DNA from: a virus
Length of the DNA stretch: 57,267 nt
Virus record (IMG/VR): IMGVR_UViG_3300006869_000011
Location: 1-57,267 of that record
Strand: one strand, 5' to 3'
Shown here piece by piece: positions 9,718-50,908 of the stretch. A program made the translations under genes and the position numbers. Positions within the stretch are counted from its first letter, which is position 1. The number at the start of each line of letters is the position of its first letter. The notes under the pieces are model-generated. The model worked only from the letters and a program-made list of their open reading frames with translations, did no database searches and was not told where the DNA came from.

Positions 9718-10556
9718 AAAGGAATAGGTTTAAGATTATAATTGTCTTCTAACAAAGCATAATTTAAACCTACTCTATTTACATACCCTTCTCTTGAATA
9801 TTTTTTACCAAATGTTTTGTTTGTAAAGCTGTATCCTAAAAATACCGTATCACTTGGTTCAAAATCTATTTCATTGCATATCTTTATTTGTTTACTTCTG
9901 TATTTGTTATACACATAGTCTGCTGAAAAATTTTTAAGCAAGTTTGTATGCATTCCTAAACTTACATGATTTACATAATAGTATTCATTAATTAATTTCA
10001 TTGCAATATTTTGTTCATTGGTAAAACATATTCCTGTTCTACAAAATCCAGTAACAAATGTTTTGCTTAAACTAAACGCAACAAATTTAATACAAGGTTG
10101 ATGTACATTTATATTTACATTAGCACAAGTTCCAAAAAAGGCCATATCTAAAAAGACAGGAATATCACACAAATTACAATAATCGATTATGTCATCAAAA
10201 TGTTCGTGTTTGTTTCCATGGGCAGAAAATGGATAACTTATAATCAATTTATTTTGTTTAGATAACTCTTTTAAGTTATCGATTGATTTTATTCCTAAAG
10301 TATGATGATAAGGATATTCACCTCTAAATACACATGTTTCTAAATGTTTATAGCTTTTTTCAAAATCGCTAAATGCACTTGTAACTCCATCAGTGACATA
10401 TGCACTAAAATTATTTAATCCAGTTACACAATTATTTTTGCTTGTTATAATCCAGTTTTTATATGTTACAATAAAAGTTTCAATATTATGCCATTTTGCA
10501 ACTAAATCATATTCAAAATTTGGATCTTTTATTCCTTCAGCTCTATACGTTATCAT
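9714..10556 (-). CDS. PLP-dependent aminotransferase-like protein (fold type I)
   Basis: 280 residues from the ATG at 10556. Fold-type-I marks: D137 in VFLDMAF (pairs with the pyridine nitrogen) and K165 in FSLSKTF (Schiff-base lysine), then GFCRTG resembling the phosphate-binding SLSK..G.R.G pattern. Shorter than usual (350-400), lacking much of the N-terminal small domain. An in-frame GTG at 10595 would extend it by 13 residues but overlap the upstream radical SAM gene by 53 nt; ATG gives 14 nt. Could be an aminotransferase or a relative with another PLP reaction. Last gene of its operon. Confidence 0.65.
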   Translation of the reverse strand: MITYRAEGIKDPNFEYDLVAKWHNIETFIVTYKNWIITSKNNCVTGLNNFSAYVTDGVTSAFSDFEKSYKHLETCVFRGEYPYHHTLGIKSIDNLKELSKQNKLIISYPFSAHGNKHEHFDDIIDYCNLCDIPVFLDMAFFGTCANVNINVHQPCIKFVAFSLSKTFVTGFCRTGICFTNEQNIAMKLINEYYYVNHVSLGMHTNLLKNFSADYVYNKYRSKQIKICNEIDFEPSDTVFLGYSFTNKTFGKKYSREGYVNRVGLNYALLEDNYNLKPIPF

Positions 10557-11664
10557 ATTTTCTTTTGGGAATTTTACTATCTGCTGAACTAACACAACTT
10601 TCAGTCATACAAGGCATCGGTTTATCAAACAATTTAAATCCTGTTTCTATATTGCCAAGTGGAACGTCATGACAGCTATAACTACGCTTAATACTACCGT
10701 CTGGTTCTCTAATAATAATTCCTTGATATCCTGCATTGCAATTCCACCCTTTAAATTTATTAAAGTTAAACGCATTAAAACGTTCTGCTTGATCCATATA
10801 CCATGCTTTACCAGTACTATCTCTAAATTCAACTTGCATATGCCAAGGTACACTTGCATCATGCTTGTACATAATGTCAGTAGGTATTTCAAACTTTGGT
10901 TTTGGCCTATCTACAAATTTTCTTTTTGATTCTGTGTAGGCTCTTTGTGGCATACCGTTCCAGAGTCTTTTAAGCATTTCGTCACTATACCCATCCACAA
11001 CACGGGAGGCCGTTGGATCGGACTGGGGCTTAAGAGTAACATTAATTCCTTGTTCATGGAAGAATAAGGCGTTTTCCCAATCTCGCTCAAACCATTCAGG
11101 AACCATAACCATATTAATTGTAACTTGTACATCGTGTTCTTGACACAGGATTAGTTTATCTGCAAAATCCTGCATTTTCTCCTTTGTGTCTAAATGCTCT
11201 GTATGAAGACTTGCTGTAATACTTGCTCTATGAAACGGCTTAACACGTTCTACATAATCCTCAAACCACTTCATTGGGCGTGAGCAGTTTGATGTCATAT
11301 GGACAGAAGTATAATTAGTATTATCGACATCATCAGCCAAGTGACCAAGTATGTCCAAGTACCCTGGATGAAAGGTAGGCTCGCCCCCAGACAAACTAAA
11401 ATGAAAGCTATTAAATCCGTTATCACGTGCTTGCCTCTTTATTTCATCAATTGTTTTAAGACAGAGTTCAGTCGGTCTGTGGTCTTTTCGGTCACTCCTG
11501 GCATAAGGCCAACAATAACTGCAACGATAATTGCAAAATCTACCTAGTAACCAAGATACCGTAAAGATATCTCTGTAGAGCAGCGTTCGTTGTCCCACTT
11601 GGACAATGTCGTTAAAAGGTATTTTAGTAAAGTCATAGTTTGACCATTTTAAATCTTCTGTCAT
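10543..11664 (-). CDS. Radical SAM protein with C-terminal cysteine region
   Basis: 373 residues. Cluster motif C44xxxC48xxC51 (CNYRCSYC) binds the [4Fe-4S] cluster that cleaves SAM; SLSGGEPTFHP follows. The C terminus has extra cysteines in FKGWNC, SCHD and CMTESC, as expected for an auxiliary cluster of SPASM/twitch type. Closest in the window to the gene at 29853 (shared start pattern, FKGWNC). First gene of a two-gene unit with the aminotransferase-like gene, directly behind a consensus promoter whose -10 is 6 nt before the ATG, predicting a leaderless mRNA. No other Met lies before the cluster motif. Confidence 0.88.
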   Translation of the reverse strand: MTEDLKWSNYDFTKIPFNDIVQVGQRTLLYRDIFTVSWLLGRFCNYRCSYCWPYARSDRKDHRPTELCLKTIDEIKRQARDNGFNSFHFSLSGGEPTFHPGYLDILGHLADDVDNTNYTSVHMTSNCSRPMKWFEDYVERVKPFHRASITASLHTEHLDTKEKMQDFADKLILCQEHDVQVTINMVMVPEWFERDWENALFFHEQGINVTLKPQSDPTASRVVDGYSDEMLKRLWNGMPQRAYTESKRKFVDRPKPKFEIPTDIMYKHDASVPWHMQVEFRDSTGKAWYMDQAERFNAFNFNKFKGWNCNAGYQGIIIREPDGSIKRSYSCHDVPLGNIETGFKLFDKPMPCMTESCVSSADSKIPKRKYDNV

Positions 11665-11670
11665 ATTAGT

Positions 11671-11699
11671 ATTATATACTCATTTATTGTTTTTGTCAA
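11671..11699 (-). promoter_or_regulatory. Consensus sigma70-like promoter, leaderless start
   Basis: On the minus strand: TTGACA (11699-11694), 17-nt spacer, TATAAT (11676-11671), then 6 nt to the ATG at 11664. Both hexamers are perfect. The expected transcription start falls on or next to the A of the ATG. It fills the 31-nt gap between two enzyme genes. Confidence 0.85.
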
Positions 11700-12358
11700 T
11701 TATGATATTTTATAAATTTTCCTACTTCCGGTCTAGGCTGATTTGAATGCACACCACGTTTGTATACAATACCATCAACCGGGCATCTCCAATATCCTTC
11801 GGCTTCAGGATTATGATCAAAATTTGGTTTTGTTCCAATACCCAAGCAAACCCATGTTTGATGATTGGCATAACCAATTTTTTTAGCAAAATAACTAGGG
11901 TCAGGAATACAACCACAAAATCCTGCTTGGTATCCTAAATCATATGCAGCATGTACTAGGTGCATTGCAGCCATTCCTACTTCCATATGTGATTGTGCAA
12001 CATTGTCTATCATAACTCCAATAGGCCAATCTGTTTCAGGAACTGGTAAGTCTGTAATAGGTGTAGTAGGAACGGTAAAAGTTATAAGCAATGGTGCTGC
12101 CATTTGGGGTTGTTTGTTAAATGGTTTATGATTAGAACTATCTTGATCAATCCAAGTACAATATTCATACATCCATAATCTTAAATCTTTATTGCTCCAA
12201 TTGAAAACATCTATAAAGTATGGATATCTTCCTTGCTTACTAGGCAATGTTGCACATAAATCATTCATTAGTTTTTCAACATGTTCTTCGGGTATAACTT
12301 CATTCATATTAAAATTGTTAAAGCTGTGCCGTGAATAAATTAATTCATTCCAGTCCAT
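11696..12358 (-). CDS. Nitroreductase-like flavoprotein
   Basis: 220 residues. RHSFNNF near the start, APLLITF, a helix GMAAMHLVHAAYDLGYQAGF followed by CGCIPD, and VCLGIG near the end match the FMN-binding nitroreductase fold, which uses NAD(P)H to reduce or FMN to oxidise small molecules or peptides. The C-terminal 40 residues (YWRCPVDG) are extra. Last gene of the 21809-11696 unit; its start overlaps the preceding radical SAM gene by 14 nt. Related in fold to the protein at 43146. Substrate unknown; some relatives dehydrogenate azoline rings in peptide natural products (family knowledge). Confidence 0.7.
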   Translation of the reverse strand: MDWNELIYSRHSFNNFNMNEVIPEEHVEKLMNDLCATLPSKQGRYPYFIDVFNWSNKDLRLWMYEYCTWIDQDSSNHKPFNKQPQMAAPLLITFTVPTTPITDLPVPETDWPIGVMIDNVAQSHMEVGMAAMHLVHAAYDLGYQAGFCGCIPDPSYFAKKIGYANHQTWVCLGIGTKPNFDHNPEAEGYWRCPVDGIVYKRGVHSNQPRPEVGKFIKYHN

Positions 12359-13562
12359 TTAATACTTCTCCTAACCAAGGAAATTCAACAAAATAATCTT
12401 TTTGCTTCATTCCTCCTTGTAAAATATACCAATCTTTAGCTTTTTGTAATTGGTCTAATTTCCTGTTTGTTCCTAGCATTGCTGCAACATTTTTACATAA
12501 ATTTATATGATGTATGTTATGCTTTATGTTCAAACTTTCTAAGTAATCTATTGTCTTGTTGATTTCTGTTTTATATTTTAGCGGCAAAATACGAGGACTC
12601 ATTGCAGCAGGTTCATTAACATAATTATGTCCTAGTTCCCATTTATCATTACCTCTATTTTTAATTGAAATATCTGTAATAGTTTTTATCATATTATAAT
12701 GATAAGGCACACTTAATGCACTTATAGTAGGAAGCCAGCTAACACTTGTTACAGAACTATCTTGCAAAATAGTTTCTGCATTTTTCCAAAATCTTTCCCA
12801 TATCAATCCTTCACGTATTGTACTTCCTTCGTTACCCATGGCATCTATACTAGGACAAATACGTAGATTTTTTAATCCACTATCTTTCCACATATCTAAA
12901 AAGTTTTCTAAAACCTTTGGTTTTACATTTAGGTTTGTTGTTAAACTTATTCCACCAAATTTAGCATTTGAATTTTTATGTGCATCGATGATATTTTTAA
13001 AAACATCTGTAAACATAGGATCAAGTAAAGGTTCTCCACCAATAAAATTATAATCTAACCATTGTTCAGATTTTCTAATATATTTGTACAAGTTGTCTAA
13101 GATTTTTGTTTTCCAAATATCTTCATCTGTATTATTGTTTTTTAATCCATCAATATCTGACCACATACTACTTACATAACCATTACAATACATACATGTC
13201 ATATTGCAAGTATTACTAAGCATTATTTCAATATGTCTTCCAGTATCATAATTAGGATTTTGCAGTTTTATTAAATCACTTTGTGTAAAATTATAATTTT
13301 TCCATGTATTCCAAACGCTCCACAAACTATCAGGATGATTTAAAGCACATTCTTTACATCCATCAGGAAAATTATTTTGTTTTACAAAAAACTTTTTTTC
13401 TTTTTGTTCTTTTTTTCTATGTAAAAAAACTTGAGTGCCTTTTTCATCAATTTCATCTATGGTTACTTTTTGATTAGTTTTTTTACAACAATTGACTATA
13501 GACTGCTGTGGCACACGAATGTTAATATCTGTCCACATTTTACTACAAACCATATGTTTCAT
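12345..13562 (-). CDS. Radical SAM protein with N-terminal twitch-like domain
   Basis: 405 residues. N-terminal cysteines C6, C25-C26 and C69xxC72 precede the core motif C119xxxC123xxC126 (CNMTCMYC). FIGGEPLLDP marks the SAM-binding loop. The N-terminal domain is longer between CC and CxxC than in most relatives, with a lysine-rich insert (residues 48-61). The C terminus (FVEFPWLGEVL) departs from the usual D-x-x-R ending. ATGA overlap with the SGNH-like gene upstream. Substrate unknown. Confidence 0.82.
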   Translation of the reverse strand: MKHMVCSKMWTDINIRVPQQSIVNCCKKTNQKVTIDEIDEKGTQVFLHRKKEQKEKKFFVKQNNFPDGCKECALNHPDSLWSVWNTWKNYNFTQSDLIKLQNPNYDTGRHIEIMLSNTCNMTCMYCNGYVSSMWSDIDGLKNNNTDEDIWKTKILDNLYKYIRKSEQWLDYNFIGGEPLLDPMFTDVFKNIIDAHKNSNAKFGGISLTTNLNVKPKVLENFLDMWKDSGLKNLRICPSIDAMGNEGSTIREGLIWERFWKNAETILQDSSVTSVSWLPTISALSVPYHYNMIKTITDISIKNRGNDKWELGHNYVNEPAAMSPRILPLKYKTEINKTIDYLESLNIKHNIHHINLCKNVAAMLGTNRKLDQLQKAKDWYILQGGMKQKDYFVEFPWLGEVLNGLE

Positions 13563-14269
13563 TTATAGGATCCTATAACGAGTTCATCTGCATCTGGCGG
13601 ACCATACTCTTTTAAATTTATATCAAATTCACGTATATCATCAAAATGTTCTAAAATACGTTTGGCAAATTGTATGTTATTTTTTTGATTCATATGACAT
13701 GCTCTTAAATCAGCAAAATCGTCTTTCATAACATTTACCTTAAAAATTTCATGATCTATATCTGCTATCCGTGTCATAGAAGCTTTAATAGGTTCGTTTG
13801 CTGTTCTTGTCATAGCAGGAATACACAACTCAACATTTGGCATATTCCTAATTTCTTCAACCAACAATTTCCAGTACAAGTTTTGTTCACGTTCGTCACA
13901 AATATATTGATAATAAAATTTCAATCCTGGTGCCATCTTTTTTGCTAGTATTGATTTTGGATCCCAATCTGATCTGTTTTCTCTGCGCATTATATAATGA
14001 TATCCATAACAATGTTCAATATTGTAGTCAGTTAATTTTGGTAACCATAAACGATTAGGATTAGTATAAATTACTATCAATTTATCGTACGCAGCTTCGT
14101 GTTGTCTAATTTGGTTGTATGTCCAATACAAACTGCTACCTGCAAATCCATGGTTGCCAATATACCAATCTGGACGCATTTCTTGTAAATGCTCTGTCCA
14201 ACGTTTTTGTTTCGCTTCCAAATCGCCAGTATGTCCTGCAAAGCTATCTCCAAAAACACCGATCTTCAT
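13559..14269 (-). CDS. SGNH/GDSL hydrolase-like protein
   Basis: 236 residues from the ATG at 14269, which overlaps the TGA of the upstream FkbM-type gene (ATGA). A longer in-frame start at 14296 adds 9 residues inside that gene and is less likely. Block I is GVFGDSFAGH (Ser nucleophile in GDS); G-F-A-G-S-S and YTNPNR may represent the Gly and Asn blocks; a late DLRACHMNQ may supply the His. SGNH enzymes commonly remove or transfer O-acyl groups on sugars. Activity is inferred from the fold motifs only. Confidence 0.6.
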   Translation of the reverse strand: MKIGVFGDSFAGHTGDLEAKQKRWTEHLQEMRPDWYIGNHGFAGSSLYWTYNQIRQHEAAYDKLIVIYTNPNRLWLPKLTDYNIEHCYGYHYIMRRENRSDWDPKSILAKKMAPGLKFYYQYICDEREQNLYWKLLVEEIRNMPNVELCIPAMTRTANEPIKASMTRIADIDHEIFKVNVMKDDFADLRACHMNQKNNIQFAKRILEHFDDIREFDINLKEYGPPDADELVIGSYK

Positions 14270-14985
14270 GTAATCAACTCTCCTGGTATAAACCAATAAT
14301 CTACAGGACCGTGTGTCCTAGTAATAGCACTTTTAAATTGTACACTATAGTAATTATTCTCACGGAGCAAAGGAACCACTATATTCTGAGGACATTCAAT
14401 TTGTATTATAGGTTTATATTTACTTACCGTCCATTCTGCTCCTAAAATAATCTTAGCATCTGCACCTTCTGCATCAACTTTTATAAAGTCTATGTTTTTT
14501 ATATTTTTTATTCTAACAAATTTGTCTATTGTGTTGGTTTGTACATTTAAGACTTTTGGTTCAAAATCTTCTTTCCATCTAAATCTGTCTAGGGTGTTAC
14601 CTCCCATTTTTTCTGGATTTTTAGCTCTATATTCTTCAGGAACAACATAAAATTCTGTAAGTTTTCTGTGAGAGTATAAGGGTTGTTGTACTAAGGTAAA
14701 ATTTTCGTATCCTTGTTGTACACACCATTTTTTAATTTCATTAATTGTGAAATCAGGTTCAAAACCATAAACATAATCATGCCACGAACATACACCCATA
14801 GACGTCGGATAATGTAAACCAACATTTATATATGTTCCTAGTTTTTTATAATGTTTTGCAATTGCATAACCTATATGATAGTTATCGTATTGCTTTTTTC
14901 CTAGTATAAATTCATCTCTTGTAATATTTCTAACTAGTTCTATATGGTTAAGGTGAATAACTGGCAAACTCGGGAATAATTTCAA
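14266..14985 (-). CDS. FkbM-type SAM-dependent methyltransferase
   Basis: 239 residues. The FkbM signature is clear: a long-range block FIKVDAEGADAKIILGAEW followed by KPIIQIECP. YINVGLHYP near residue 52 stands in for the glycine-rich SAM loop. FkbM enzymes O-methylate sugars or polyketides. The start is uncertain: the frame opens at a TTG (14985) that overlaps the upstream radical SAM gene by 38 nt; no ATG occurs before residue 60. Part of the 21809-11696 operon. A second FkbM-type gene lies at 19997. Confidence 0.72.
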   Translation of the reverse strand: MKLFPSLPVIHLNHIELVRNITRDEFILGKKQYDNYHIGYAIAKHYKKLGTYINVGLHYPTSMGVCSWHDYVYGFEPDFTINEIKKWCVQQGYENFTLVQQPLYSHRKLTEFYVVPEEYRAKNPEKMGGNTLDRFRWKEDFEPKVLNVQTNTIDKFVRIKNIKNIDFIKVDAEGADAKIILGAEWTVSKYKPIIQIECPQNIVVPLLRENNYYSVQFKSAITRTHGPVDYWFIPGELIT

Positions 14986-16111
14986 TTAAATTTTCTTTCC
15001 TACTAATATCTAAATTTTTTGTATAATCAACAAACTTATTATATTTATTTGACCAATCTTCTGCATACATATAATCAATTATACCTTGCACTTTAGGTAA
15101 CCAAGTATATGGTTCTAAACGTTTTGCTGCAAGATCTTTTAATTCTTTTGGTAGAACTCTAATGTTAAGTTCTTCAGGATGATTAAGAATATTAAAGTAA
15201 ATCTTGTAGTCATAAGGCAATGCCCATTCTATAAAGTCATTTAGTTTTAATATATTGTACATTTGTACCGTACAATGAATTTCTACAAATGCATTTTCAA
15301 GTTTAGTTATTGCCTCAAAGTTTTCTACAATTTTATCCCAGTTGCTTGGATATCTAATATATCTATCTAACTCACCTGTAGCATCAATACTGCAATTTAG
15401 CTGTACACGTTTGAAATGACTCCATTTTTGCATCAATTCTGCAGGCACATTTGTAAGATTAGTATTGTATTTTAATTTAATTTTTTTTGCTTTACCGCTA
15501 TCAATATAATAATCTAATAATCTATGTTGTTCTTTGATAATAGTTGGCTCGCCACCAGTTAAATATATTTCCTCTACCGTATCTGCAATTTTAAAAAGAT
15601 TATCCCATACCGTTTCGTGTTCTGGCCAATCCATATTTTTTAATCTATTGTATTCACTTTCTTCTAGTGCATCACTTACTAAATGCCATTCTTTTACCCA
15701 TTGATTACTTGCATACGGATTGCACATACGGCATTTTAAGTTACATAGATTACCTAAACGTATATCAACATAACGTATTGTAAAAGGTGCTTCAACTGGA
15801 TAATCTCTATCTTGAGCCCATTTTTCATTCCAGTTTTGTCTAGTACTTGTTATACCAGCATCTTCTTCTCTAAAGCAACGTGTACACATTTCAGGACGTT
15901 CGCCGTTGAGCATTTCTTGTCTAATTTTTTTGTAGGTTTCGCTATTCCATGCTTCTTCTATATTGTCTTTGTTGACACGGTAAGCATTGCCATCATCTTT
16001 CATAATAAAATTCTTACCCGGTGTACTATTACAGCATACTCTCATAATGCCACTTGCACTTGTAGCTAAACTCATCCATGGTAATACGCAAAATGTTTTA
16101 GATTGAGTCAT
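14948..16111 (-). CDS. Radical SAM protein with N-terminal twitch-like domain
   Basis: 387 residues, a typical member of the window's main family. C8 in CVLPW, C26-C27, C76xxC79 (MCTRC), then SxRQ; core motif C123xxxC127xxC130 (CNLKCRMC) in RLGNLCNLKCRMC; LTGGEP loop near residue 195; C-terminal DISRKENLIEIIPEF. The N-terminal cysteines would hold an auxiliary Fe-S cluster placed before rather than after the core (inference from SPASM/twitch families). Overlaps the preceding gene by 14 nt. The substrate is unknown. Confidence 0.88.
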   Translation of the reverse strand: MTQSKTFCVLPWMSLATSASGIMRVCCNSTPGKNFIMKDDGNAYRVNKDNIEEAWNSETYKKIRQEMLNGERPEMCTRCFREEDAGITSTRQNWNEKWAQDRDYPVEAPFTIRYVDIRLGNLCNLKCRMCNPYASNQWVKEWHLVSDALEESEYNRLKNMDWPEHETVWDNLFKIADTVEEIYLTGGEPTIIKEQHRLLDYYIDSGKAKKIKLKYNTNLTNVPAELMQKWSHFKRVQLNCSIDATGELDRYIRYPSNWDKIVENFEAITKLENAFVEIHCTVQMYNILKLNDFIEWALPYDYKIYFNILNHPEELNIRVLPKELKDLAAKRLEPYTWLPKVQGIIDYMYAEDWSNKYNKFVDYTKNLDISRKENLIEIIPEFASYSP

Positions 16112-17195
16112 AAATTTCTATTCCCTTTTCATCTAATAAATGAGGCAAAACTTGTTTTAAAGATTGATTTCTTATTTTATCTAATCTAGCAGTACTAACT
16201 ATAAAGTTATTATACATTTTGAGATCAGTAGGTTGCTGCAACAAAGTTTTTATACCGTGTAATTTTGTAGGATCATTGTTGTATATATCTTCAATTTTTT
16301 CAATATCTGATATAATCGACTTTTTACTTTTTTCTGGCATCAAATTACATACCAAATATTTTGGATTATCTAATATTATCCAATTAATTCTATGGTTAAC
16401 AATTTTAGTAAATTCGTACATATTGTGTATGGTTAAATTTTGAACAACATAGTTATAACTAAAACTTGTAAAGTTTAATTCTTCAATTTGTTTGATTCTT
16501 TCCAAACATTGTTTCCAACTAAATGTATTATCACCTCTCACATATTCGTATGTATTGCCTACTCCGTCTATACTTAGCTGGTAATCAATTTCAATATGCG
16601 AGGATAAATCAATAAACCATTGAGGAAGTTTGGTACCATTAGAAATAACTACAAGTTTCACAGGAATGTTTAACTTGCTTATTTTTTCTAAAAAGTATTG
16701 TGCATTGGGATTAATTAAGGGCTCGCCGCCTTTGAGTTCAACTACAATACGTTTTTGATTTTTTATATAATTTAAAATTTTATCAATTTCTTCTTTGGTA
16801 ATTTGCCATTGAACCTGTTTCTTTCTTCCTAACTTTATTGCGTCTGCAAACCAGCTAGTGCTTAAATGTTCATTACACATCCTGCATTTTAAATTACAAA
16901 AATTACCTAAACTTATGTCTAATAAAAAATCACCATACTCAAATCTATAGTCATAACTTTGTCTACGACTTAGCAAATTATTTTCTTCAGCAAATTTACA
17001 ACTACTGCATCCGTCAGGCCAATATCCGTTTTGTAATAATTTTTTTGTTTTTTTCCATTGTTTGCTAGAAAAAATATTGTCCACACTTTTATAATCCATA
17101 AGCATATCAAAAGTGTCTCTAAACTTACAACAAGGTCTTACATAACCATTAGGATCAATAGAAATACTATGATGTAAACTATAACAATCATTCAT
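16098..17195 (-). CDS. Radical SAM protein with N-terminal twitch-like domain
   Basis: 365 residues. C4, C22-C23 (VRPCCKF) and C63xxC66 (GCSSC), then SRRQ; core C100xxxC104xxC107 (CNLKCRMC); ELKGGEPLINP. C terminus LDKIRNQSLKQVLPHL carries the shared D-x-x-R...P ending. Overlaps its upstream neighbour (17188) by 8 nt, with which it forms a tandem pair of equal architecture. By eye this stretch is among the most AT-rich of the window. Confidence 0.87.
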   Translation of the reverse strand: MNDCYSLHHSISIDPNGYVRPCCKFRDTFDMLMDYKSVDNIFSSKQWKKTKKLLQNGYWPDGCSSCKFAEENNLLSRRQSYDYRFEYGDFLLDISLGNFCNLKCRMCNEHLSTSWFADAIKLGRKKQVQWQITKEEIDKILNYIKNQKRIVVELKGGEPLINPNAQYFLEKISKLNIPVKLVVISNGTKLPQWFIDLSSHIEIDYQLSIDGVGNTYEYVRGDNTFSWKQCLERIKQIEELNFTSFSYNYVVQNLTIHNMYEFTKIVNHRINWIILDNPKYLVCNLMPEKSKKSIISDIEKIEDIYNNDPTKLHGIKTLLQQPTDLKMYNNFIVSTARLDKIRNQSLKQVLPHLLDEKGIEIYDSI

Positions 17196-21809: not shown

Positions 21810-21816
21810 ATAAATA
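21809..21816 (+). promoter_or_regulatory. Exact T4-type late promoter element
   Basis: TATAAATA, identical to the T4 late consensus, lies 25 nt before the ATG at 21842 in a 32-nt divergent gap. Its first T is shared with the start codon of the minus-strand radical SAM gene. It would transcribe the three plus-strand SGNH-like genes late. Confidence 0.6.
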
Positions 21817-21841
21817 CTTATAATATGCGTAGTTTATTGTT

Positions 21842-35380: not shown

Positions 35381-35391
35381 ATTGTACTTAC

Positions 35392-40689: not shown

Positions 40690-40695
40690 TGTTTT

Positions 40696-40723
40696 ATTAT
40701 AACACCTTTTTAGTTTTTGTCAA
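40696..40723 (-). promoter_or_regulatory. Consensus sigma70-like promoter, leaderless start
   Basis: Minus strand: TTGACA (40723-40718), 16-nt spacer, TATAAT (40701-40696), then 6 nt to the ATG at 40689. Its -35 overlaps the last codons of the upstream methyltransferase gene. It heads a unit of about 14 enzyme genes. Confidence 0.85.
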
Positions 40724-44084: not shown

Positions 44085-44085
44085 T

Positions 44086-44310
44086 TTAATTCTCCATTAC
44101 CAATTTAACATCTTTACCAGGGCCTACTTTGCTTGGCAAATCTCCGTATTGTTCTACATACCATTCAATAACAGCTTTATACCAATTTTGACTATTATGG
44201 TGAGCTTTTTTATTAAACTGCCATATGTTATTGTTTGTTGCTTGCATTGTACTCAATGCTCTTGCACTTTCCGTTTGTAATTGTCTTACACTTAGATCAT
44301 CTAATTCCAA
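44086..44310 (-). CDS. Small hypothetical protein
   Basis: 74 residues with a TTG start inside the preceding gene; no Shine-Dalgarno sequence is evident and the start is uncertain. Aromatic- and Asn-rich middle (NNNIWQFNKKAHHNSQNWYKAV), then a charged C terminus. Fills the space between two enzyme genes with 1 nt to spare, which argues for a real gene. It could be a substrate peptide or a small subunit; there is no cleavage motif such as a double glycine. Confidence 0.5.
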   Translation of the reverse strand: MELDDLSVRQLQTESARALSTMQATNNNIWQFNKKAHHNSQNWYKAVIEWYVEQYGDLPSKVGPGKDVKLVMEN

Positions 44311-45340
44311 TTTTCATAAACCTTGTATATTTTCCTAAATTTAATTCGCCTTCATATAAAGTTTGTGCCATAGGCGAATACTTGCTAAACTCTTCTAGTG
44401 TGTTGCAGCAATTAACATGCTCTGGTATTTCAAAATAATTATTACCTTGCAAAATACAAATTGTTCCTTCTGGAATTTTATGATACCATACATGATAATT
44501 TTCAATGTGCTCGGTGCTTGTGTTTATAACGGTGTTAGGTGTTTCCCAGATTGTTTCTTGGGTTCCGTCAAATTTATTTACATCGTAAATATGTCCATCA
44601 AATCTAATATCATGTATATCTTGTATGCAATGTTTATATGTCCAATTGTTTAAAATATAAGGCTTGTTAATAATGTTTGCAATTTTTTCGCAAGACTCAT
44701 CTACATCAAATGTTGTAATTTTATCAATTTTTAATTTTGCATCTAACATCATAGTTGCTAAAATACCATACCAGCCTGCACATAAAAAAACTATTCCTAA
44801 ATCTAAATTTAATTTTTTAAGTTCATCTATAAGCCAGAGTTTACTTTGTAATTGACCTCTACTTAAACAATCTTTATCAAACTCTATATCGTTTGTAATT
44901 AAATTTTTTAGTGCATTTACAAGAGTTGAATCTGAATATTCTGCAAGTAATCTAAACAAACTAAAAAGATTATCGTCTAAAACAAGTTTACGTATATCAT
45001 CATTACCAGCACATTTAAAAATTGAATTTTCATCTTTTTCTATAATAGCAAGTTTTAAACTATCGTTTCCTGCTAGTAATCTAAACAAACTATGAATATT
45101 TTGCTCAAGAATTGCTTTCCTTAAATCTTCAATATCGCCAATAATTCTTTTGTTAGTTACAAGCCTAAATATACTATGCCAATTTTCTTCTAAAATAGCA
45201 CGCCGTAACTCATCCTTTTCAACTAACTCAAATAAACTAGTGTAATCTTTATCTATGTATAATCTACGTAATTTACTAAAGCGAGAATCGTCAGCATGAA
45301 TTAATTCAAATCTATCTAATATTTCAAAAATTTCCAGCAT
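44297..45340 (-). CDS. Repeat-bearing N-terminal domain fused to SAM methyltransferase-like domain
   Basis: 347 residues. The ATG at 45340 is preferred to a TTG at 45343. Residues about 20-140 contain four to five degenerate repeats with the core L-R/K-x-A-I-L-E-x-N-x-x-S-L-F-R-L. The C-terminal half has VFLCAGWYGILATMMLDA and FDVDESCEKIA, a class I SAM-binding fold. Similar repeat-plus-methyltransferase proteins seem familiar from T4-like marine phages (recollection). Overlaps the glycosyltransferase-like gene by 17 nt. Confidence 0.65.
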   Translation of the reverse strand: MLEIFEILDRFELIHADDSRFSKLRRLYIDKDYTSLFELVEKDELRRAILEENWHSIFRLVTNKRIIGDIEDLRKAILEQNIHSLFRLLAGNDSLKLAIIEKDENSIFKCAGNDDIRKLVLDDNLFSLFRLLAEYSDSTLVNALKNLITNDIEFDKDCLSRGQLQSKLWLIDELKKLNLDLGIVFLCAGWYGILATMMLDAKLKIDKITTFDVDESCEKIANIINKPYILNNWTYKHCIQDIHDIRFDGHIYDVNKFDGTQETIWETPNTVINTSTEHIENYHVWYHKIPEGTICILQGNNYFEIPEHVNCCNTLEEFSKYSPMAQTLYEGELNLGKYTRFMKIGIR

Positions 45341-46382
45341 CAAATTTTTCTTTCAACCAATCAAAATCATTTATCTTTTTAAGCTCGTCTGGTTTACCTT
45401 GATTTCTAGCACCATATGCTGCACCTGCTTTAGCACCAATAATTGCATACTCTGCAAATTCTGCATCATCTTCTGTGTATGTGCACCAAGTTCTTAATCT
45501 ACGATTTGTTTCTTGATCCTTTTGCCTATCAATTACTTTACTACTTAATTTAGCACATTCTCTAAATGCACCTTTCCATGTTTCAAATGGACTAGTGTTA
45601 AATGCAGTAATGTTTGAAATTTTTTGCACAGCAACAAATTTATTACTAATGCTTGTTGTCATATCAGGCTTGTTTACATCCATATCAAGCGTTTGTTGCC
45701 TTGGCAACAACTTAACACCGCCGTAACCATAAACTAATCCATTTACTGGATTTTGTGATCTCCATACGTGAACTGCATCTTTATTATGTGTTTCAGGAAC
45801 AAAGGTGTCAAATTTAAAATAGTCTGTAAGTTGGGCATCGCCGTCGACAACAAAAAACATCTTAGATTGACACAATTTTGCTGCTTCAATATGCGCTTGG
45901 TGAATACCTTTTACTCCATGTACACGTTTTGCATGAGGTGCTTTTTCGAGAAGTTTTTCAAAATTTTCATCTGCATTAGGTTCTTTATAGCTAATAAACA
46001 CAACATCATACTGATCAATTTTTGGCCTGCTTGCAACAACAGGAACAAACTTTTTATTAATGTAATATCTTGCTTGTAATTCGCCTGGCCCGTGATGACT
46101 ATCTTTCGGCATTAAACACACGCCATCATAATATTCTTCTTTATAATATAATCTTTCATTCAAAAATACATGTGTGTATTCTTTACTATACTCATCTACT
46201 TTGTAATCAAATTTCCAATCATCAACCAAATCAACGTCATTATACACAATCCATAAATGTTTTGTAAGTGCTTTTTGTTTTGCTTCTGGCACCGTTTCTA
46301 CACAGCGAGCCATAGGAAATCTTTCTTTTAAGGCTTTGTAGCCACTCCAATGTTTTTGACCTATAAAAAATATATCATACAT
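45324..46382 (-). CDS. Glycosyltransferase-like (GT-A-type) phage protein
   Basis: 352 residues from the ATG at 46382; the frame runs on to 46538 but that part overlaps the plus-strand tail gene and promoter. YDVVFISYKEPNADENF and RVHGVKG are shared with 50908; FFVVDGDAQ supplies a DxD-like metal-binding motif. VYGYGGVKLLP follows in both. The first 140 residues repeat the pattern in degenerate form (YDIFFIGQKHW). Cytoplasmic sugar transfer is inferred from DxD only. The promoter -10 is 6 nt before the ATG. Confidence 0.6.
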   Translation of the reverse strand: MYDIFFIGQKHWSGYKALKERFPMARCVETVPEAKQKALTKHLWIVYNDVDLVDDWKFDYKVDEYSKEYTHVFLNERLYYKEEYYDGVCLMPKDSHHGPGELQARYYINKKFVPVVASRPKIDQYDVVFISYKEPNADENFEKLLEKAPHAKRVHGVKGIHQAHIEAAKLCQSKMFFVVDGDAQLTDYFKFDTFVPETHNKDAVHVWRSQNPVNGLVYGYGGVKLLPRQQTLDMDVNKPDMTTSISNKFVAVQKISNITAFNTSPFETWKGAFRECAKLSSKVIDRQKDQETNRRLRTWCTYTEDDAEFAEYAIIGAKAGAAYGARNQGKPDELKKINDFDWLKEKFDAGNF

Positions 46383-46388
46383 ACTATA

Positions 46389-46417
46389 ATTATATGATAA
46401 TATAACTAGCTTGTCAA
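46389..46417 (-). promoter_or_regulatory. Consensus sigma70-like promoter, leaderless start
   Basis: Minus strand: TTGACA (46417-46412), 17-nt spacer, TATAAT (46394-46389), then 6 nt to the ATG at 46382. Perfect hexamers in a 72-nt divergent gap that also holds a late-promoter-like element for the opposite strand. Confidence 0.82.
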
Positions 46418-46427
46418 GTTTAGAATT

Positions 46428-46435
46428 GATAAATA
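46428..46435 (+). promoter_or_regulatory. T4-late-promoter-like element
   Basis: GATAAATA, the same octamer as before the tail-fibre gene at 4908, lies 19 nt upstream of the ATG at 46455, with a GGAGG ribosome site between. Early (minus) and late (plus) signals thus share one divergent gap. Confidence 0.5.
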
Positions 46436-46454
46436 GTTTGTACGGAGGATTACC

Positions 46455-47882
46455 ATGACAATTATACCAGGTGACGCATATAGAATTGATGTTGTAGGCG
46501 CTGATGAACAAGTTATCGTTGACAGCTGGACAAGCCAAGTTAAAGGCAATGTTGTAACACGTGACGGTGTTTTACAAGTTGACACAACAAACGGAAAAAT
46601 ATATGGTCCATTAGTAGGAGATATTGAAGATATTTCCGGTAACACTATCTTTAATAACGATCTACGTTTATTTACTACTGATATTAAAGGTGATGTACGT
46701 AACACAAATGGTAATATTGTTTTAAACAGCGAACAAGCACTACTGGTAGGCAACATGCAAGGTAATATGTATGACAGCGAAGGTGTTGTCATGATTAACC
46801 ATACTACAAAATCAATAGATGCAACAACAATTGTAGCTGATAGTATTACTGGTACGTTTTACGGAACTCTTAACACAACAGGTACAATTAGAGGTAACTT
46901 AATTGGTAATGTTGTTGGCGATGTTACTGGAGAAGTTACTGGAAATACAACCGGACATCACTTTGGTAATGTAGACGGTAATGTTACGGGTGATGTTACT
47001 GGTAACGTTACCGGAGATTTGTACGGACAAATTATGGCTGTACAAAGAGATGAAACAGATCCAACCGTACTGATTGCTTACAACGAACATGCAGCTCATA
47101 GACAATGGGAAATGAGAGGCGGTATTTCTCATATTGATAATGCTGGAAAGGGACCTATTTTAGGAATTGGTGCTACACGCACAGATGCATATTTAAAAGC
47201 CGATATAGTTGCATATGATGGCACTCCACAGCTAACTTTAACACCAACAGAAGACTACGGTCTAGAAGCAGACATTGTAAAAAGTAATTACTTTGGTGCT
47301 GTACAAGGCAGGCTAATGGATGGAACAACTGACATTATGACATGGGTTGGTAGCACAACTTCGATATATGCTAATAACGGTGTACTACAACTTGGTATGG
47401 ATTACACAAGTGATATTGAGTTTAATGCAGAAAGTATTGTTAAAAACTTCAATATATCTGACGGAGATGCAACTGAATTAGTCAACGCTTTTAGAGGAAC
47501 ACCAGAAGCAAAAACAGCATTACAAACATCAGATCCAATGCTTATGGTTGCAGCTCTTGGTTATAATGGTGCAGGATTTGTTGATGCAGGACATTTTGGA
47601 TTCTTTGTTGACAGAAACACTGCTCCTACTTCAACTGATAGTAGTGTAAAAACAGGGTTTAGTGTTGCACTAGGAACAGGATCTGCAACTCCTATAGCAA
47701 ATCAAAGCATGAATTTAGAATTTAATAGTGCAGGTGTTTTAGAAGTTCCTGTTTTTAAAGCCCGTGGTACAAATTTTGCAGCAAGAGATAGTATGACTGC
47801 TGAAGCAGGAATGATTATTTTCAATACAAGTAATAATAAATTCCAAGGATACACAGGTTCTGCGTGGGTTGACTTACACTAA
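46455..47882 (+). CDS. Tail-fibre-like structural protein
   Basis: 475 residues. The N terminus (DAYRIDVVGADEQVIVDSW) differs from the protein at 4908. A run of GDVTG/GNVTG units covers residues about 150-190, followed by folded blocks and a C-terminal cap ending KFQGYTGSAWVDLH, matching 4908. Probably a fibre or baseplate-attached virion protein. Its last codons contain the -35 of the next gene's promoter. Confidence 0.8.
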   Translation: MTIIPGDAYRIDVVGADEQVIVDSWTSQVKGNVVTRDGVLQVDTTNGKIYGPLVGDIEDISGNTIFNNDLRLFTTDIKGDVRNTNGNIVLNSEQALLVGNMQGNMYDSEGVVMINHTTKSIDATTIVADSITGTFYGTLNTTGTIRGNLIGNVVGDVTGEVTGNTTGHHFGNVDGNVTGDVTGNVTGDLYGQIMAVQRDETDPTVLIAYNEHAAHRQWEMRGGISHIDNAGKGPILGIGATRTDAYLKADIVAYDGTPQLTLTPTEDYGLEADIVKSNYFGAVQGRLMDGTTDIMTWVGSTTSIYANNGVLQLGMDYTSDIEFNAESIVKNFNISDGDATELVNAFRGTPEAKTALQTSDPMLMVAALGYNGAGFVDAGHFGFFVDRNTAPTSTDSSVKTGFSVALGTGSATPIANQSMNLEFNSAGVLEVPVFKARGTNFAARDSMTAEAGMIIFNTSNNKFQGYTGSAWVDLH

Positions 47883-47896
47883 AATTGTGTTATAAT
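47869..47896 (+). promoter_or_regulatory. Sigma70-like promoter, leaderless start, before the ANL gene
   Basis: TTGACT (47869-47874), 16-nt spacer, TATAAT (47891-47896), then 5 nt to the ATG at 47902. The -35 lies in the final codons of the tail-fibre-like gene. Its -10 context (gtgttataataaa) is the same as that of the promoter at 40696. Confidence 0.75.
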
Positions 47897-47901
47897 AAAG
47901 C

Positions 47902-48963
47902 ATGAAAATTTACATAGATGGTGAACAAATCTCTGAACAATGGATTAGCGATTATACACTGAGCAATCCTGTAGATTGTTTTAGTGATAAGCCTGACTGG
48001 GAACAGAATGTATTAAAACTACTACACAACTGGTACTGGCAAAGTGGATATAGTTATGGCTATAGAGGCGATAAATTTTTAAATCTAAGTACAAGTGGCA
48101 CTACAGGATTTCCACAACATATCGGTCATAGTAAAGAAACTATTGAGCAAGCAGTAAATGCAAATATAAAAATTTTAAATTTAGAAAAAAATAGTAAAAT
48201 ACTTAGTTACTATTCACCTCGTGGTATTGCATTCAGTGTATTAAGTGTATATCTCGCTCTTAAATTAAATTGTGAACTTTACATTGAAACTTTTAAAGGA
48301 ATTGATTATGTAAATCGTATACATGATATCCGTCCTACACATACGCTGTTGTTACCTAATGTTTGGAAAACTTTATACAAACACAAAAAATGGCAGACAT
48401 TAGATTACAGCAGTGTAAACACACTTATTACAGGAAGTGATTTTACACCAATAGGAATGCTAGACGAATTACGTGAACATGGCCCAAATAAAGTTTACAA
48501 TGTGTATGGTAGCACAGAAGTACCTCCTATTGTTTTATACAGCGAAGAAGAAAATACTTATACAGCAGAAAGTATTGCACCAGGTGCAGAACTAGATATT
48601 GTAAATAATCAAATATGCTGTAAATGGAGTAGTCAACCTAATATATGGGTAAGTGGTGATTGTGTACAAGGTGATAGAAATCGTTTTACACTTAACGGAC
48701 GAATGCCAAATATGTTTAAGCAAGATACAATTAGAGTGTATCCAGAACAAATAGAAAAAGCAGCAGTAGCAGCAGGCGCAGAACTTGCATTATGTCGGCA
48801 AGTAGGAAATCAATGCGTGGTCCATTACACCGGACATATAAAATATATGGCGGAATTTGTAGAAGAATTTAGATATATTCCTCGCTTTAGATTGCGAGCA
48901 GTAAATGAAATAAAAATTGACGATAACTTGAAAAAGATTATAAGGACACAAACTTTTGTATAG
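47902..48963 (+). CDS. ANL-superfamily adenylate-forming enzyme
   Basis: 353 residues. LSTSGTTGFPQ (about 63-73) is the ATP-phosphate loop; NVYGSTEVPP the YGxTE motif; VSGDC...LNGRMPNMFK...VYPEQIE the hinge and GR region; NLKKIIR near the end resembles the A10 lysine region. ANL enzymes activate carboxylates as acyl-AMP for transfer to CoA, a carrier or an amine. At 353 residues it lacks much of the N-terminal subdomain (usual size 500-600). The loop has PQ instead of PK. Followed directly by a possible acyltransferase. Confidence 0.82.
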   Translation: MKIYIDGEQISEQWISDYTLSNPVDCFSDKPDWEQNVLKLLHNWYWQSGYSYGYRGDKFLNLSTSGTTGFPQHIGHSKETIEQAVNANIKILNLEKNSKILSYYSPRGIAFSVLSVYLALKLNCELYIETFKGIDYVNRIHDIRPTHTLLLPNVWKTLYKHKKWQTLDYSSVNTLITGSDFTPIGMLDELREHGPNKVYNVYGSTEVPPIVLYSEEENTYTAESIAPGAELDIVNNQICCKWSSQPNIWVSGDCVQGDRNRFTLNGRMPNMFKQDTIRVYPEQIEKAAVAAGAELALCRQVGNQCVVHYTGHIKYMAEFVEEFRYIPRFRLRAVNEIKIDDNLKKIIRTQTFV

Positions 48964-49570
48964 ACTAGAAATATACAACGGCACACAGGATTTGACAGAG
49001 TTTTATGCTGGCGCAGAAGCAAAAGGTTTTTACAATAATCATAATAAAACGGTACTTATTGACTACATTGACAAACACGAAGATGCTACACTATTTTTAA
49101 TGTATTACAAAGATAAAGTAGTTGGAACAAGTATAAGTCATAGTCTACGACAATTGGGTATATTAGGAAAAAACGCACATCGTATTAGTGCAAGGACCTG
49201 CGTATTAAATGATTTAATCGATGGCAATCGTGCTCATGCTGTGCATAACTATCGACACTCGCCAATGAATCATTGGACTAGTCAAATGCTGACTCCAGTT
49301 TGTATGCATTACGTAGGATTAGAAAAACCTATGTATATTAGCACAAACACAAACGAAGTTGGAAGCCAAAACAAAGTACATCGCATTTGGGCTAAAATAA
49401 TGCACAATCAAGGATATTTAAAAGACCCTATTGAACTAGAATACAAAGGCACTTTCCAAACATTTTGGCGTGTAGATGTAGATTTTTATATTAAAAAACT
49501 AAAAGAAAATATGTGGCCTGAAACAGAACTTGCACTAAACGTATTTCTTGCAGAGTTCAAAAAAGTCTGA
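48956..49570 (+). CDS. Possible GNAT-like acyltransferase
   Basis: 204 residues, TTG start overlapping the ANL gene by 8 nt, with AAGGA 9 nt upstream. LFLMYYKDKVVGTSI resembles the central strands of GNAT folds, and LNDLIDGNRAH sits where a receptor helix might follow, but no clear acetyl-CoA loop (Q/RxxGxG/A) is visible, so this is tentative. Its coupling to an adenylating enzyme supports an acyl-transfer role. The 3' end overlaps the converging radical SAM gene by 36 nt. Confidence 0.45.
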   Translation: MYRLEIYNGTQDLTEFYAGAEAKGFYNNHNKTVLIDYIDKHEDATLFLMYYKDKVVGTSISHSLRQLGILGKNAHRISARTCVLNDLIDGNRAHAVHNYRHSPMNHWTSQMLTPVCMHYVGLEKPMYISTNTNEVGSQNKVHRIWAKIMHNQGYLKDPIELEYKGTFQTFWRVDVDFYIKKLKENMWPETELALNVFLAEFKKV

Positions 49571-50908
49571 CATTTCTGGAAACACTTCTTCGTGATTGAC
49601 TCCACGTCTACGACCTTGTTCTGCAAAAAAGTTGTGAAAGTCTTTACGTCCTTGAATAATTTTATCTAATGGATATTCAGTTGTTTCCATATAGTCAACA
49701 ACACGTCTAAACTTTTCATACTCAATTGTACTAAATGCATCTTTACGATTATCATCTACATTTTCTTTTATAAATTGCAAATGATCACGCATATAACTCA
49801 TGTAGTTATTAGGCAAAATGTTAATATCATATTGTAACGGCTCTTTAAGATGTGGTGTATCAAAACCTAACCGCTGCCATCTGTGTGTTTCTACATCATT
49901 ATATTTTTTACGCCATTCTAATATTTTTTCTAGTAGTGTGCGAAATGTTGTTACACTGAAAATGTTGAACGTAATCATTAGTACCATTGGTGCTTGACAA
50001 TTACGCATAAAATAATCCAAGTTACGTTCAAACACTTCAATGTCTAATCCGTCTCGTATGTATTCTGCACGTTTGCCCCAAGTGTCAATACTAGTAAACA
50101 TTTTAAAGCGTCTAATCTTGTTGTTTGTTAACAAATCATTTACACGGTTTGTAAACTTTTCTAACTGCTTTGGTTTTCCACCTAAATTGCTGTTGCAATT
50201 AAGCTCTAAGTCAGGCTTAGGATCAGCATCAAGCATATCAAACAACCGGTATGTGCTTTGTTGTATAGTAGGTTCTCCACCAGTAATACGCAGTATGTGC
50301 AGTTCTTTACTAAGCTCGGGCCACCATCGCCAAAATGCATCTAAATAAGGATTGTTTTCTTCTTCAAATATTTGAAACCAATCAATATCACATCTGTGAT
50401 TTTTTACATTTGTGTACGGGCCATGTTGTTTAATTTCTTGATAGTATCTGCTGCTGGCTTTAGGATGACAATAACCGCAACGGAAGTTACACTCGTTGCC
50501 AAATGATACTTCTAAGTATTCTGGATTTACGTCAAACTCTGCACCGCCTTCTTTTACTGCTGCTAATCTATGTTTGAAGAAAATAGTTTGGTTACGCTGT
50601 TTCCTATCACTAACATAATCTTTGCCAAGTGCTTCAATTTTCCAGCAATAGTTGCAACCACTAGGCTGTTCGCCACGCATCATAGCAGCACGTTCTTGTT
50701 TCTTTTGTGCTGTGTTGTGTATTGCACTTGGATTTTCTAATAATGGTGCTGTGTCAATTTTATGGGGAGCAGGATGATAACAACTATGTGTTTCACCTGT
50801 TTGAAAATATATGTTGGCATGATACCATTTTGCAAAACAAAACGTTGGTGATATTTCTTGTGTTATACCATCGATGCGTTTAATTTCTTCGCTTTCGCTA
50901 CGCTCCAT
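49535..50908 (-). CDS. Radical SAM protein with N-terminal twitch-like domain
   Basis: 457 residues. C24 in CFAKW, single C43 (HSCYH), C85xxC88 (GCNYC), then SDRKQ; core C140xxxC144xxC147 (CNFRCGYC); ITGGEPTIQQ. C terminus EVFPEMSDFF matches 33980. It has an extra N-terminal 15 residues. The only radical SAM gene outside the main block, in an operon with glycosyltransferase-like genes. TAATG overlap with 50908. Confidence 0.87.
   Translation of the reverse strand: MERSESEEIKRIDGITQEISPTFCFAKWYHANIYFQTGETHSCYHPAPHKIDTAPLLENPSAIHNTAQKKQERAAMMRGEQPSGCNYCWKIEALGKDYVSDRKQRNQTIFFKHRLAAVKEGGAEFDVNPEYLEVSFGNECNFRCGYCHPKASSRYYQEIKQHGPYTNVKNHRCDIDWFQIFEEENNPYLDAFWRWWPELSKELHILRITGGEPTIQQSTYRLFDMLDADPKPDLELNCNSNLGGKPKQLEKFTNRVNDLLTNNKIRRFKMFTSIDTWGKRAEYIRDGLDIEVFERNLDYFMRNCQAPMVLMITFNIFSVTTFRTLLEKILEWRKKYNDVETHRWQRLGFDTPHLKEPLQYDINILPNNYMSYMRDHLQFIKENVDDNRKDAFSTIEYEKFRRVVDYMETTEYPLDKIIQGRKDFHNFFAEQGRRRGVNHEEVFPEMSDFFELCKKYV

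Follow-up and report, generated by a model that had tools for sequence, protein, structure and literature searches.

The 57,267-nt window analysed here (IMG/VR record IMGVR_UViG_3300006869_000011, positions 1 to 57,267; genes are designated by their lower coordinate in it) is a fragment of an uncultured phage from the jumbo-phage group and carries twenty radical S-adenosylmethionine (rSAM) genes, which form a bank that fills an island of ~46 kb between tail-fibre regions. Radical SAM enzymes carry out chemistry that other enzymes rarely manage. Comparison with related contigs revealed that the island consists of a conserved core and a variable set whose make-up changes from one relative to another, and that these phages keep it at a fixed site between tail-fibre and baseplate genes. 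The function that we consider most likely, at a probability of roughly 0.35, is the tailoring of a surface glycan with a role in host recognition or exclusion, where we infer both the glycan target and the order of the steps.

The initial annotation, made from the letters alone, had counted twenty genes with the rSAM cluster motif, and this count held in full. All 20 are minus-strand open reading frames (ORFs) of 275-466 aa with one CX3CX2C motif each (20/20), and in the profile search for Radical_SAM that it had proposed, PF04055 matched 19/20 genes, 16 of them above its cut-off. The sole miss, 41266 (41266..42093, minus strand), is 40% identical to rSAM 39607 despite the lack of a PF04055 match. 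The NF033640 model (N_Twi_rSAM) matched 20/20 at E<=1e-3 and 13/20 above its curated cut-off of 170 bits; 12345 scores 167.9 bits, and the six window rSAMs that score 20-41 bits (35.6 bits for 41266) are not N_Twi_rSAM members. The listed genes are thus all radical SAM genes, and the family model gives no function.

These enzymes are of three kinds: 14 have an N-terminal twitch-like cysteine set, four have C-terminal cysteines (25869, 37477, 39607 and 41266) and two are of a third type (10543 and 29853). In the first kind, the auxiliary cysteines C9, C27, C90 and C93 (33980 numbering) precede the core and are invariant in 47 sequences; the same pattern was found in 456/469 distinct N-terminal-twitch proteins, in which the auxiliary cluster is a prediction. 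In an alignment of the C-terminal group, C256, C275, C276 and C348 are invariant and may belong to an auxiliary cluster domain of the SPASM/twitch kind. The structural model of 33980 (mean pLDDT 89.9, pTM 0.89) predicts an rSAM fold, the core of which aligns with 5why, a sactipeptide thioether enzyme (Z 11.8, rmsd 3.8, 221 residues); its further structural neighbours include BlsE, DesII, anSME, SkfB and viperins, and the model does not tell a peptide from a sugar substrate. A solved-structure search with the 39607 group returned nothing at 1e-6. Separately, the third-type rSAM seems to be split in loci L030-L040, L043, L046 and L047 (e.g. L036:11997-12461) into two parts, an N-terminal one of ~240 aa with CX3CX2C and a C-terminal one of ~150 aa, possibly a genuine split enzyme.

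The phage origin proposed in the initial annotation was borne out by a 98 kb contig, G001, which represents the window's own phage: it contains the same block with 20 PF04055 matches and is 99.97% identical over 21.3 kb. The extra ~49 kb of G001 encodes a major capsid protein, portal, baseplate wedge and fibre proteins, together with an SbcC-like exonuclease, a tryptophan halogenase and a further rSAM, which adjoins the capsid gene (L055:986-1840). The capsid is of the T4 type and its region matches PA5oct and other jumbo phages, and the wedge matches Atu_ph07, SCTP-2, CBB and others at about 33-37% identity. The wedge family (phrog_10646) is present in 20/46 contigs related to rSAM 26858 and in 18/19 of those of at least 60 kb. 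Long relatives measure 251, 257 (G085) and 275 kb (G055), and the two that were read have the same layout; jumbo phages are defined by a genome >200 kb, of which the window (57 kb) and G001 (98 kb) would both be fragments. We had first considered the window phage to be a pelagimyophage, an identity that was given up once its capsid and wedge matched the PA5oct/SCTP-2 group. Scans of the window for tRNA and Rfam families gave no match.

The explanation that the block is a misassembly or a bacterial island, either of which the initial annotation had named as a refutation, did not hold and can be regarded as refuted for practical purposes. Misassembly is unlikely because gap-free matches to parts of the window, at 99.5-100% over 7.0-21.3 kb, were found in five contigs, each with a different dataset number. 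A jumbo-phage capsid lies on the linked contig, viral contigs share the flanks of the block, and N_Twi_rSAM genes above the cut-off were found in 3/299 Pseudomonadota genomes.

We sought viral contigs with the same block and flanks and found them: the same border genes are present in 5/5 contigs read across both borders (the window/G001, G021, G032, G055 and G085). On one side these are fibre proteins and the minus-strand genes 54048, 53212 and 52380 (together 52380..54395; syntenic in the four other spanning contigs, without a Pfam match, 53212 being sugar-transferase-like by eye) and 50908 (50908..51834, minus strand), a relative of 45324 that is syntenic in G021, G032, G055 and G085. On the other side they are the fibre gene 4908 (recognised in all but G032), 3276, a VWA/metallopeptidase-like DUF2201 protein (1545..2807, plus strand; PF13203, PF09967, phrog_1314; syntenic) and a MoxR-type AAA ATPase (362..1444, plus strand; phrog_1297, E 1e-99; syntenic in G021, G032, G055 and G085).

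Within the island, gene order and reciprocal best hits separate a core from a variable bank. The core comprises 45324 (45324..46382), 44297 (44297..45343), the gene for a 74-aa cysteine-free protein (44086..44310) and rSAMs 39607 (39607..40689; PF04055 E 8.4e-12), 33980 (33980..35380; NF033640 423 bits), which is the most conserved core enzyme, and 10543 (10543..11664; PF04055 E 4.7e-18; up to 94% identical), all on the minus strand. Gene 44297 directly precedes 44086 in 78/85 distinct contexts and is itself preceded by 45324 in 64/82, and 44086, which heads the run of core rSAMs, is followed by 39607 within two genes in 68/85 contexts; in 75 of the 85, two genes are present after it. Often present in the core as well are rSAMs 26858 (26858..28174; 387 bits with NF033640), 29853 (29853..31007; PF04055 E 7.4e-11) and 37477 (37477..38535; PF04055 E 7.3e-5), a QueC-like PP-loop ATPase and a short SDR-like protein. 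Reciprocal best hits were found in 42 other contig groups for 26858 (the bait), 40 for 33980, 35 for 39607, 31 for 29853, 29 for 10543 and 28 for 37477, in 6 to 21 groups for six other rSAMs, and in 0 to 2 for 14948, 16098, 17188, 23661, 24731, 38510, 41266 and 42080, in a contig set gathered with 26858 in which many loci end early. Because these counts range from 28-42 groups down to 0-2, we conclude that the island is a conserved core with a variable set. Median identity to relatives is 84% for 33980, 78% for 10543 and 71% for 39607, and 28% for the fibre 46455.

The bank lies, as the initial annotation had stated and the gene coordinates confirm, in overlapping operons. Of the remaining rSAM genes, also on the minus strand, those with an N-terminal twitch (NF033640 bits in brackets) are 12345..13562 (the most divergent), 14948..16111 (404), 16098..17195 (201), 17188..18372 (283), 20613..21809 (278), 23661..24734 (230), 24731..25876 (229), 28174..29361 (232), 31814..33142 (193), 38510..39610 (204), 42080..43153 (251) and 49535..50908 (299), the last being convergent to the fibre cassette; 25869..26861 has C-terminal cysteines (PF04055 E 3.6e-11). 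Five SGNH/GDSL-like proteins, recognised by eye and without a Pfam match, are scattered in the bank (13559, 19240, 21842, 22528 and 23177), and similar ones are seen in relatives.

Banks of this size are not peculiar to the window. At least 10 PF04055 matches were found in 57/92 related IMG/VR contigs (lowest 1, maxima 22 and 21; the records were not dereplicated, include G001, and the second 46 were picked mainly for length), that is, in 23/46 contigs found with 26858 and 34/46 found with the 74-aa protein or 33980; the 257 kb G085 holds 19 rSAM genes. In IMG/VR, the 74-aa protein was located at 442 loci, of which the best 80 were kept, and rSAM 33980 at 203. Among cultured phages, the 440 kb relative SCTP-2 has 0 PF04055 matches. 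Vibrio phage K566, which has the larger count of two cultured phages, has 6, partly clustered; these are far fewer, at 24% identity, and form no bank. Only distant relatives, at no more than 5 places per record, turned up when 50,697 phage records were searched by tblastn with four window rSAMs.

The N_Twi_rSAM family is rare in the Pseudomonadota genomes and abundant in these phages, because 3/299 genomes scored above the cut-off, compared with many-gene phage contigs; one of the three is a metagenome-assembled genome (MAG) whose contig carries such a phage block. In an undated tree with 173 viral representatives, four cellular sequences grouped together in a single clade (support 0.995). Two further observations concern cellular records. 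In the Pseudomonadota genome G170, four N_Twi_rSAM genes stand in tandem (G170:C19:4283-9859; L237), the only cellular array of the family met outside the phage-bearing MAG, and the MAG contigs L234 and L235 (binned as Gammaproteobacteria and Neisseriaceae) carry such a block and are probably misbinned phage.

The sequences of the bank genes look like those of working enzymes rather than decaying copies, as judged by their low dN/dS and their retention of CX3CX2C. Of 46 distinct gene comparisons between the window and five relatives (genes at least 60% identical), 42 were calculable; the ratio was <=0.2 in 41 of these and 0.25 in the remaining one, 52380. The 25 calculable rSAM comparisons all gave 0.03-0.19 (for example, 0.04-0.07 for 33980, 0.04-0.13 for 29853 and 0.03-0.04 for 49535); these values are rough, as synonymous sites are near saturation in many comparisons. 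In 3/4 relatives, 33980 retains 95-96% amino-acid identity at a dS of about 1. The CX3CX2C motif is kept in 467/469 N-terminal-twitch, 216/217 C-terminal and 131/131 third-type distinct proteins above the length limit. Recent tandem duplication was ruled out as the source of the bank, with the best paralogues in the window 41% (23661/24731) and 40% (39607/41266) identical and the other 16 below 34%. Taken together, these comparisons indicate that the rSAM enzymes are distinct and evolve under purifying selection.

We next describe the 72 bases between 45324, whose likely start is the ATG at 46382 (the ORF list begins at TTG 46538), and the plus-strand fibre gene 46455 (46455..47882), in which two promoter-like sites stand back to back. 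One, TTGACA-TATAAT (46389..46417, minus strand), faces the enzymes and ends 6 bases before the ATG, a layout also visible in relatives; the other, GATAAATA (46428..46435, plus strand), faces the fibre gene. For TTGAC-N16-19-TATAAT, the window has 7 sites where 0.64 would be expected (0/100 shuffles reach 7), and 6/7 lie a short way upstream of bank or border genes on the same strand: 10543 (11671..11699, minus), 25869 (26892..26919, minus), 39607 (40696..40723, minus), 45324, 47902 (47869..47896, plus) and 54048. The seventh, at 15049, is inside gene 14948 on the opposite strand and was taken as chance. By comparison, GATAAATA, which we take to be a late promoter from its likeness to the T4 late box, is present in two copies where 6.4 would be expected; the two stand just before fibre genes (4908, at 4873..4880 on the plus strand, and 46455) and nowhere else. 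As a side observation, TATAAATA is likewise depleted (4 against 12.9 expected), and 1/4 of its copies precedes a gene (21842); both it and GATAAATA are depleted across the window as if removed where unwanted.

Among relatives, the box [GT]ATAAATA is present in 26/39 distinct upstream regions of the 46455 fibre family and in 5/6 of the 4908 family, compared with 182/2,950 ORFs overall, and the strict sigma70 pattern is present upstream of 15/70 relatives of 10543 and 27/83 of 45324, compared with 167/2,950 overall, where the search for 45324 ran 200 bases into the ORF and so had a raised chance level. In other families the two types are mixed: upstream regions of the 54448/55545 family have the late-type box in 11/27 and the sigma70 type in 4/27 cases, and the AMP-binding gene 47902, downstream of the fibre, has a sigma70-type site of its own. 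Since the core has a sigma70-type promoter and the fibre a late-type box, these motifs suggest that the core enzymes are expressed early and the fibre late.

The fibre genes themselves raise the alternative that the enzymes act on virion proteins of the phage itself, be it the tail fibres or others, by epimerisation, crosslinking, hydroxylation or acylation, as rSAM/SPASM enzymes do on peptides, being made early so as to be ready for the late fibre. The tail-fibre-like 46455, which has no Pfam match, stands back to back with core gene 45324 in 19/24 distinct fibres and is followed by an AMP-binding (adenylating) enzyme (47902..48963, plus strand; PF00501, E 1.8e-17) within two genes in 13/24, and by a GNAT-like protein (48956..49570, plus strand; recognised by eye and by its context in relatives, with no Pfam match) within three genes in 14/24. 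At the other border, an Asp/Asn beta-hydroxylase-like gene (4287..4856, plus strand; PF05118, E 1.3e-9) lies immediately 5' of the fibre gene 4908 (4908..6707, plus strand; tail-fibre-like, with a weak match to tail fiber phrog_30742, E 0.0017), whose C-terminus, FQGYANGVWVDLH, is shared with that of 46455, FQGYTGSAWVDLH. The peptide-acting 5why, SkfB and anSME among the structural neighbours of 33980 would also fit, although the sugar-acting BlsE and DesII score equally high against the model. Against this, the box of the fibre is of the late type and the promoters of the bank are of the sigma70 type. Moreover, a single fixed fibre target is hard to see when the fibre is 28% and rSAMs 33980, 10543 and 39607 are 84, 78 and 71% identical to their relatives. 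We consider modification of the fibre or virion possible, with perhaps a quarter of the weight.

Directly after fibre 4908 lies a gene for a 999-aa protein with a subtilase domain (6718..9717, plus strand; PF00082, phrog_9158), by position a virion protease or fibre-processing enzyme. Genes of the tryptophan-halogenase family occur in the same phages (L055:13972-15615; G082, at ~37 kb; G021, at ~73 kb), and the G021 and G082 homologues sit inside the rSAM island close to the fibre cassette.

To characterise the partners of the rSAM genes, we compared the genes that lie between them; the loci overlap, so that the counts only rank the partners. The commonest are PP-loop proteins (148 ORFs/105 loci); next come short SDR-like proteins (67 ORFs/67 loci), then 18365-like (28) and nitroreductase-like (24) proteins. 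The SDR-like protein of the window (29309..29869, minus strand; S...YxxxK, weak SDR matches) has invariant S88, Y101 and K105. Among 62 scanned proteins (representatives of 59 gene families between rSAM genes, and three window enzymes), there was one match each to UDP-glucose/GDP-mannose dehydrogenase, cytidylyltransferase, carbamoyltransferase and sulfotransferase, and three to FkbM methyltransferase. The initial annotation had placed amidating, methylating, hydroxylating, reducing and glycosylating enzymes in the bank. Pfam recognised FkbM methyltransferases (14266..14985 and 19997..20620, minus strand; PF05050), a nitroreductase-family protein (11696..12358, minus strand; PF00881, E 4.4e-6), an asparagine-synthase-like amidotransferase (35392..36666, minus strand; PF00733, PF13537), the AMP-binding enzyme and the hydroxylase 4287, which lies outside the annotated interval; for the supposed glycosylating enzymes there was no Pfam match.

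The two PP-loop ATPases of the window (30997..31821 and 33139..33993, minus strand) have a QueC-like layout, with SGGxDS and C...CxxCxxC. The motifs are present in most of 20 aligned sequences and are like those of the QueC family (PF06508) in the accessible text of PMC13329287, except for a longer spacing after the first cysteine in the window proteins (~20 or more, compared with 8 in C(x)8CxxCxxC). Neither protein matched a Pfam family, PF06508 included, at E 0.01; 33139 has a QueC-like match to phrog_1550 (E 7.5e-4), and the best hit of the pair in a solved-structure search was TtuA at E 0.035. That QueC-like proteins are the commonest partner could mean that the bank makes hypermodified DNA bases against restriction, for which early expression would fit and to which a QueD-like gene in 4/19 viral records and the thymidylate-synthase family PF00303 in 6/19 would lend themselves, although PF00303 does not separate hydroxymethylase from thymidylate synthase. 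In G055 and G032, however, the QueD-like gene is far from the bank, G085 was found to have neither QueD nor thymidylate synthase and yet holds 19 rSAM genes, and the island is placed among fibre genes. A role in DNA modification is therefore improbable.

The four records with a QueD-like gene are also those that hold an A-type Fe-S carrier (4/19). G055 encodes a ferredoxin-NADP reductase (E 1.6e-57 to a solved reductase) between the carrier and the QueD-like gene (L289:16532-19999, L290:1-471), and in G032 a ferredoxin-like protein (by eye) adjoins the carrier, together with the QueD-like gene (L072:1474-4695); PF00175 (ferredoxin reductase) was found in 2/20 records, with the G055 copy alone near the carrier. 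Because the 257 kb G085 has neither Fe-S carrier nor QueD-like gene, a phage supply of Fe-S clusters is not general. Elsewhere in G055, there is a tmRNA-like gene (L292:10771-11164) with the tag ANSNFKPEVFANFDEVAIAA.

The 74-aa protein 44086 is conserved across its length: in 18 sequences, mean column identity is 76%, 25/74 residues are invariant, and there is neither a variable core region nor a fixed C-terminus. It has no Pfam, PHROG or cultured-phage match, and in the collections searched (including an 84,980-genome set) it was found in virus contigs and two MAG contigs only. A model made with the 18 sequences (pLDDT 90.8) predicts three helices and a short fourth, and a Foldseek search with it gave no match at E 0.001. 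The death domain of ankyrin-B was the best VIA-align candidate (Z 4.7, rmsd 3.5, 69 residues) and was set aside as a common helical arrangement.

The position of 44086 before rSAM genes resembles that of the precursor of a ribosomally synthesised and post-translationally modified peptide (RiPP), whereas a compact fold and uniform conservation are unlike one. It could belong to a virus-specific pathway in which 44086 is the substrate, carrier or recognition subunit for 39607, 37477 and 33980 and which releases a small molecule or a modified peptide. The order 44297-44086-39607 (78/85; 68/85), the invariant residues and virus-centred distribution of 44086, and the subtilase gene 6718 in the same region fit such a pathway, as do phages from Lake Baikal that, in the accessible text of PMC7678222, are reported to carry PqqA or rSAM genes. 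Speaking against it, the predicted protein is a compact three-helix domain rather than a leader with a flexible core, lacking the variable core region and fixed C-terminus; the 25/28 families shown for the scanned neighbours include neither a transporter nor a peptidase; and 44086 could be a regulator or chaperone. We regard this pathway as doubtful. Only slightly less tentative is a broader proposal, that of a virus-native system in which 44086 would serve as carrier or recognition subunit for the conserved rSAM set and the QueC-like ligase, acting early, while a swappable dozen or more rSAMs would diversify the product; on this view, the N-terminal-twitch family would largely have arisen in viruses and radiated within jumbo phages.

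We rank glycan tailoring first because some sugar-type enzymes are found among the variable partners, the site is a host-recognition island like that of pelagimyophages (PMC7029224), and enzymes made early fit a change to the host surface. Host RNA polymerase would transcribe the core operon early from its strong sigma70-type promoter, and the clusters of the enzymes would be charged by host proteins or, in some relatives, by the phage-coded Fe-S carrier, ferredoxin or ferredoxin reductase. The core rSAMs would then make one common unusual building block, on which the variable rSAMs, FkbM methyltransferases, amidotransferases and nitroreductases would each make one further change, as in O-antigen loci. 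The product would decorate a surface glycan on the host envelope or the virion and so decide which phages adsorb; swaps of variable enzymes would alter the decoration, and the neighbouring fibre genes would alter the receptor binder.

Several observations weigh against glycan tailoring. A 74-aa core protein is unexpected in a plain glycan pathway, and the fold of 33980 is equally close to peptide and sugar rSAM enzymes. No nucleotide-sugar gene was recognised in the conserved core, the sugar-type enzymes each represent one family within the variable set, and for the majority of the 62 scanned proteins none of the listed Pfam families matched. The glycosyltransferase reading of 45324, 50908 and 52380, made by eye, found no Pfam or named-PHROG support, and a search of solved structures with 45324 and 50908 gave nothing at E 1; likewise, the methyltransferase-like 44297 (by eye; no Pfam or PHROG support) had no hit better than E 0.11. 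With respect to timing, the evidence consists of sequence motifs alone: the strict promoter pattern was seen in only 27/83 upstream regions of 45324, and the late box was found upstream of the capsid gene in 0/3 cases (portal 1/3, wedge 1/4). A few rSAM genes lie outside the island in G032, G055 and G085, and the Fe-S carrier was not found in 15/19 viral records, including G085, where the shorter records may not reach the region. Overall, the phage-directed tailoring pathway put forward in the initial annotation stands as the best guess, with glycan, peptide and virion protein as candidate targets.

Phages rich in rSAM genes are already known. According to the accessible text of Nishimura et al. 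2017 (PMC5332604), the 183 kb T4-like genome TARA_ERS488813_N000010 has 12 rSAM superfamily genes, an A-type Fe-S carrier and other Fe-S genes, so that the earlier statement that no phage was known with so large a bank has to be qualified, even though many contigs here hold 10-22. In that text, by whose description alone we compared the genome, the rSAM genes are treated as Fe-S metabolism, and no analysis of an island, core, promoters or partners appears. The pelagimyophages of SAR11 are described in the accessible text of PMC7029224 as having rSAM cassettes and glycosyltransferases in a hypervariable host-recognition island. The present island is likewise hypervariable and has tail fibres among structural genes; the pelagimyophage island lies between VrlC and gp14, averages 44.6 kb and has prominent glycosyltransferases, whereas here rSAM genes dominate and the capsid and wedge genes are PA5oct/SCTP-2-like. 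Across the literature searched, which did not extend to subscription papers and preprints and was accessible in part, no clade-wide jumbo-phage rSAM island, core, 74-aa protein or paired promoters were found described.

An uncultured phage clade thus spends tens of kilobases on rSAM enzymes, which points to a phage product for which we found no report. With 442 loci for the 74-aa gene and 203 for 33980 in IMG/VR, the system is common; it offers a large set of uncharacterised enzymes, and the named genes 44086, 39607 and 33980 make its target testable.

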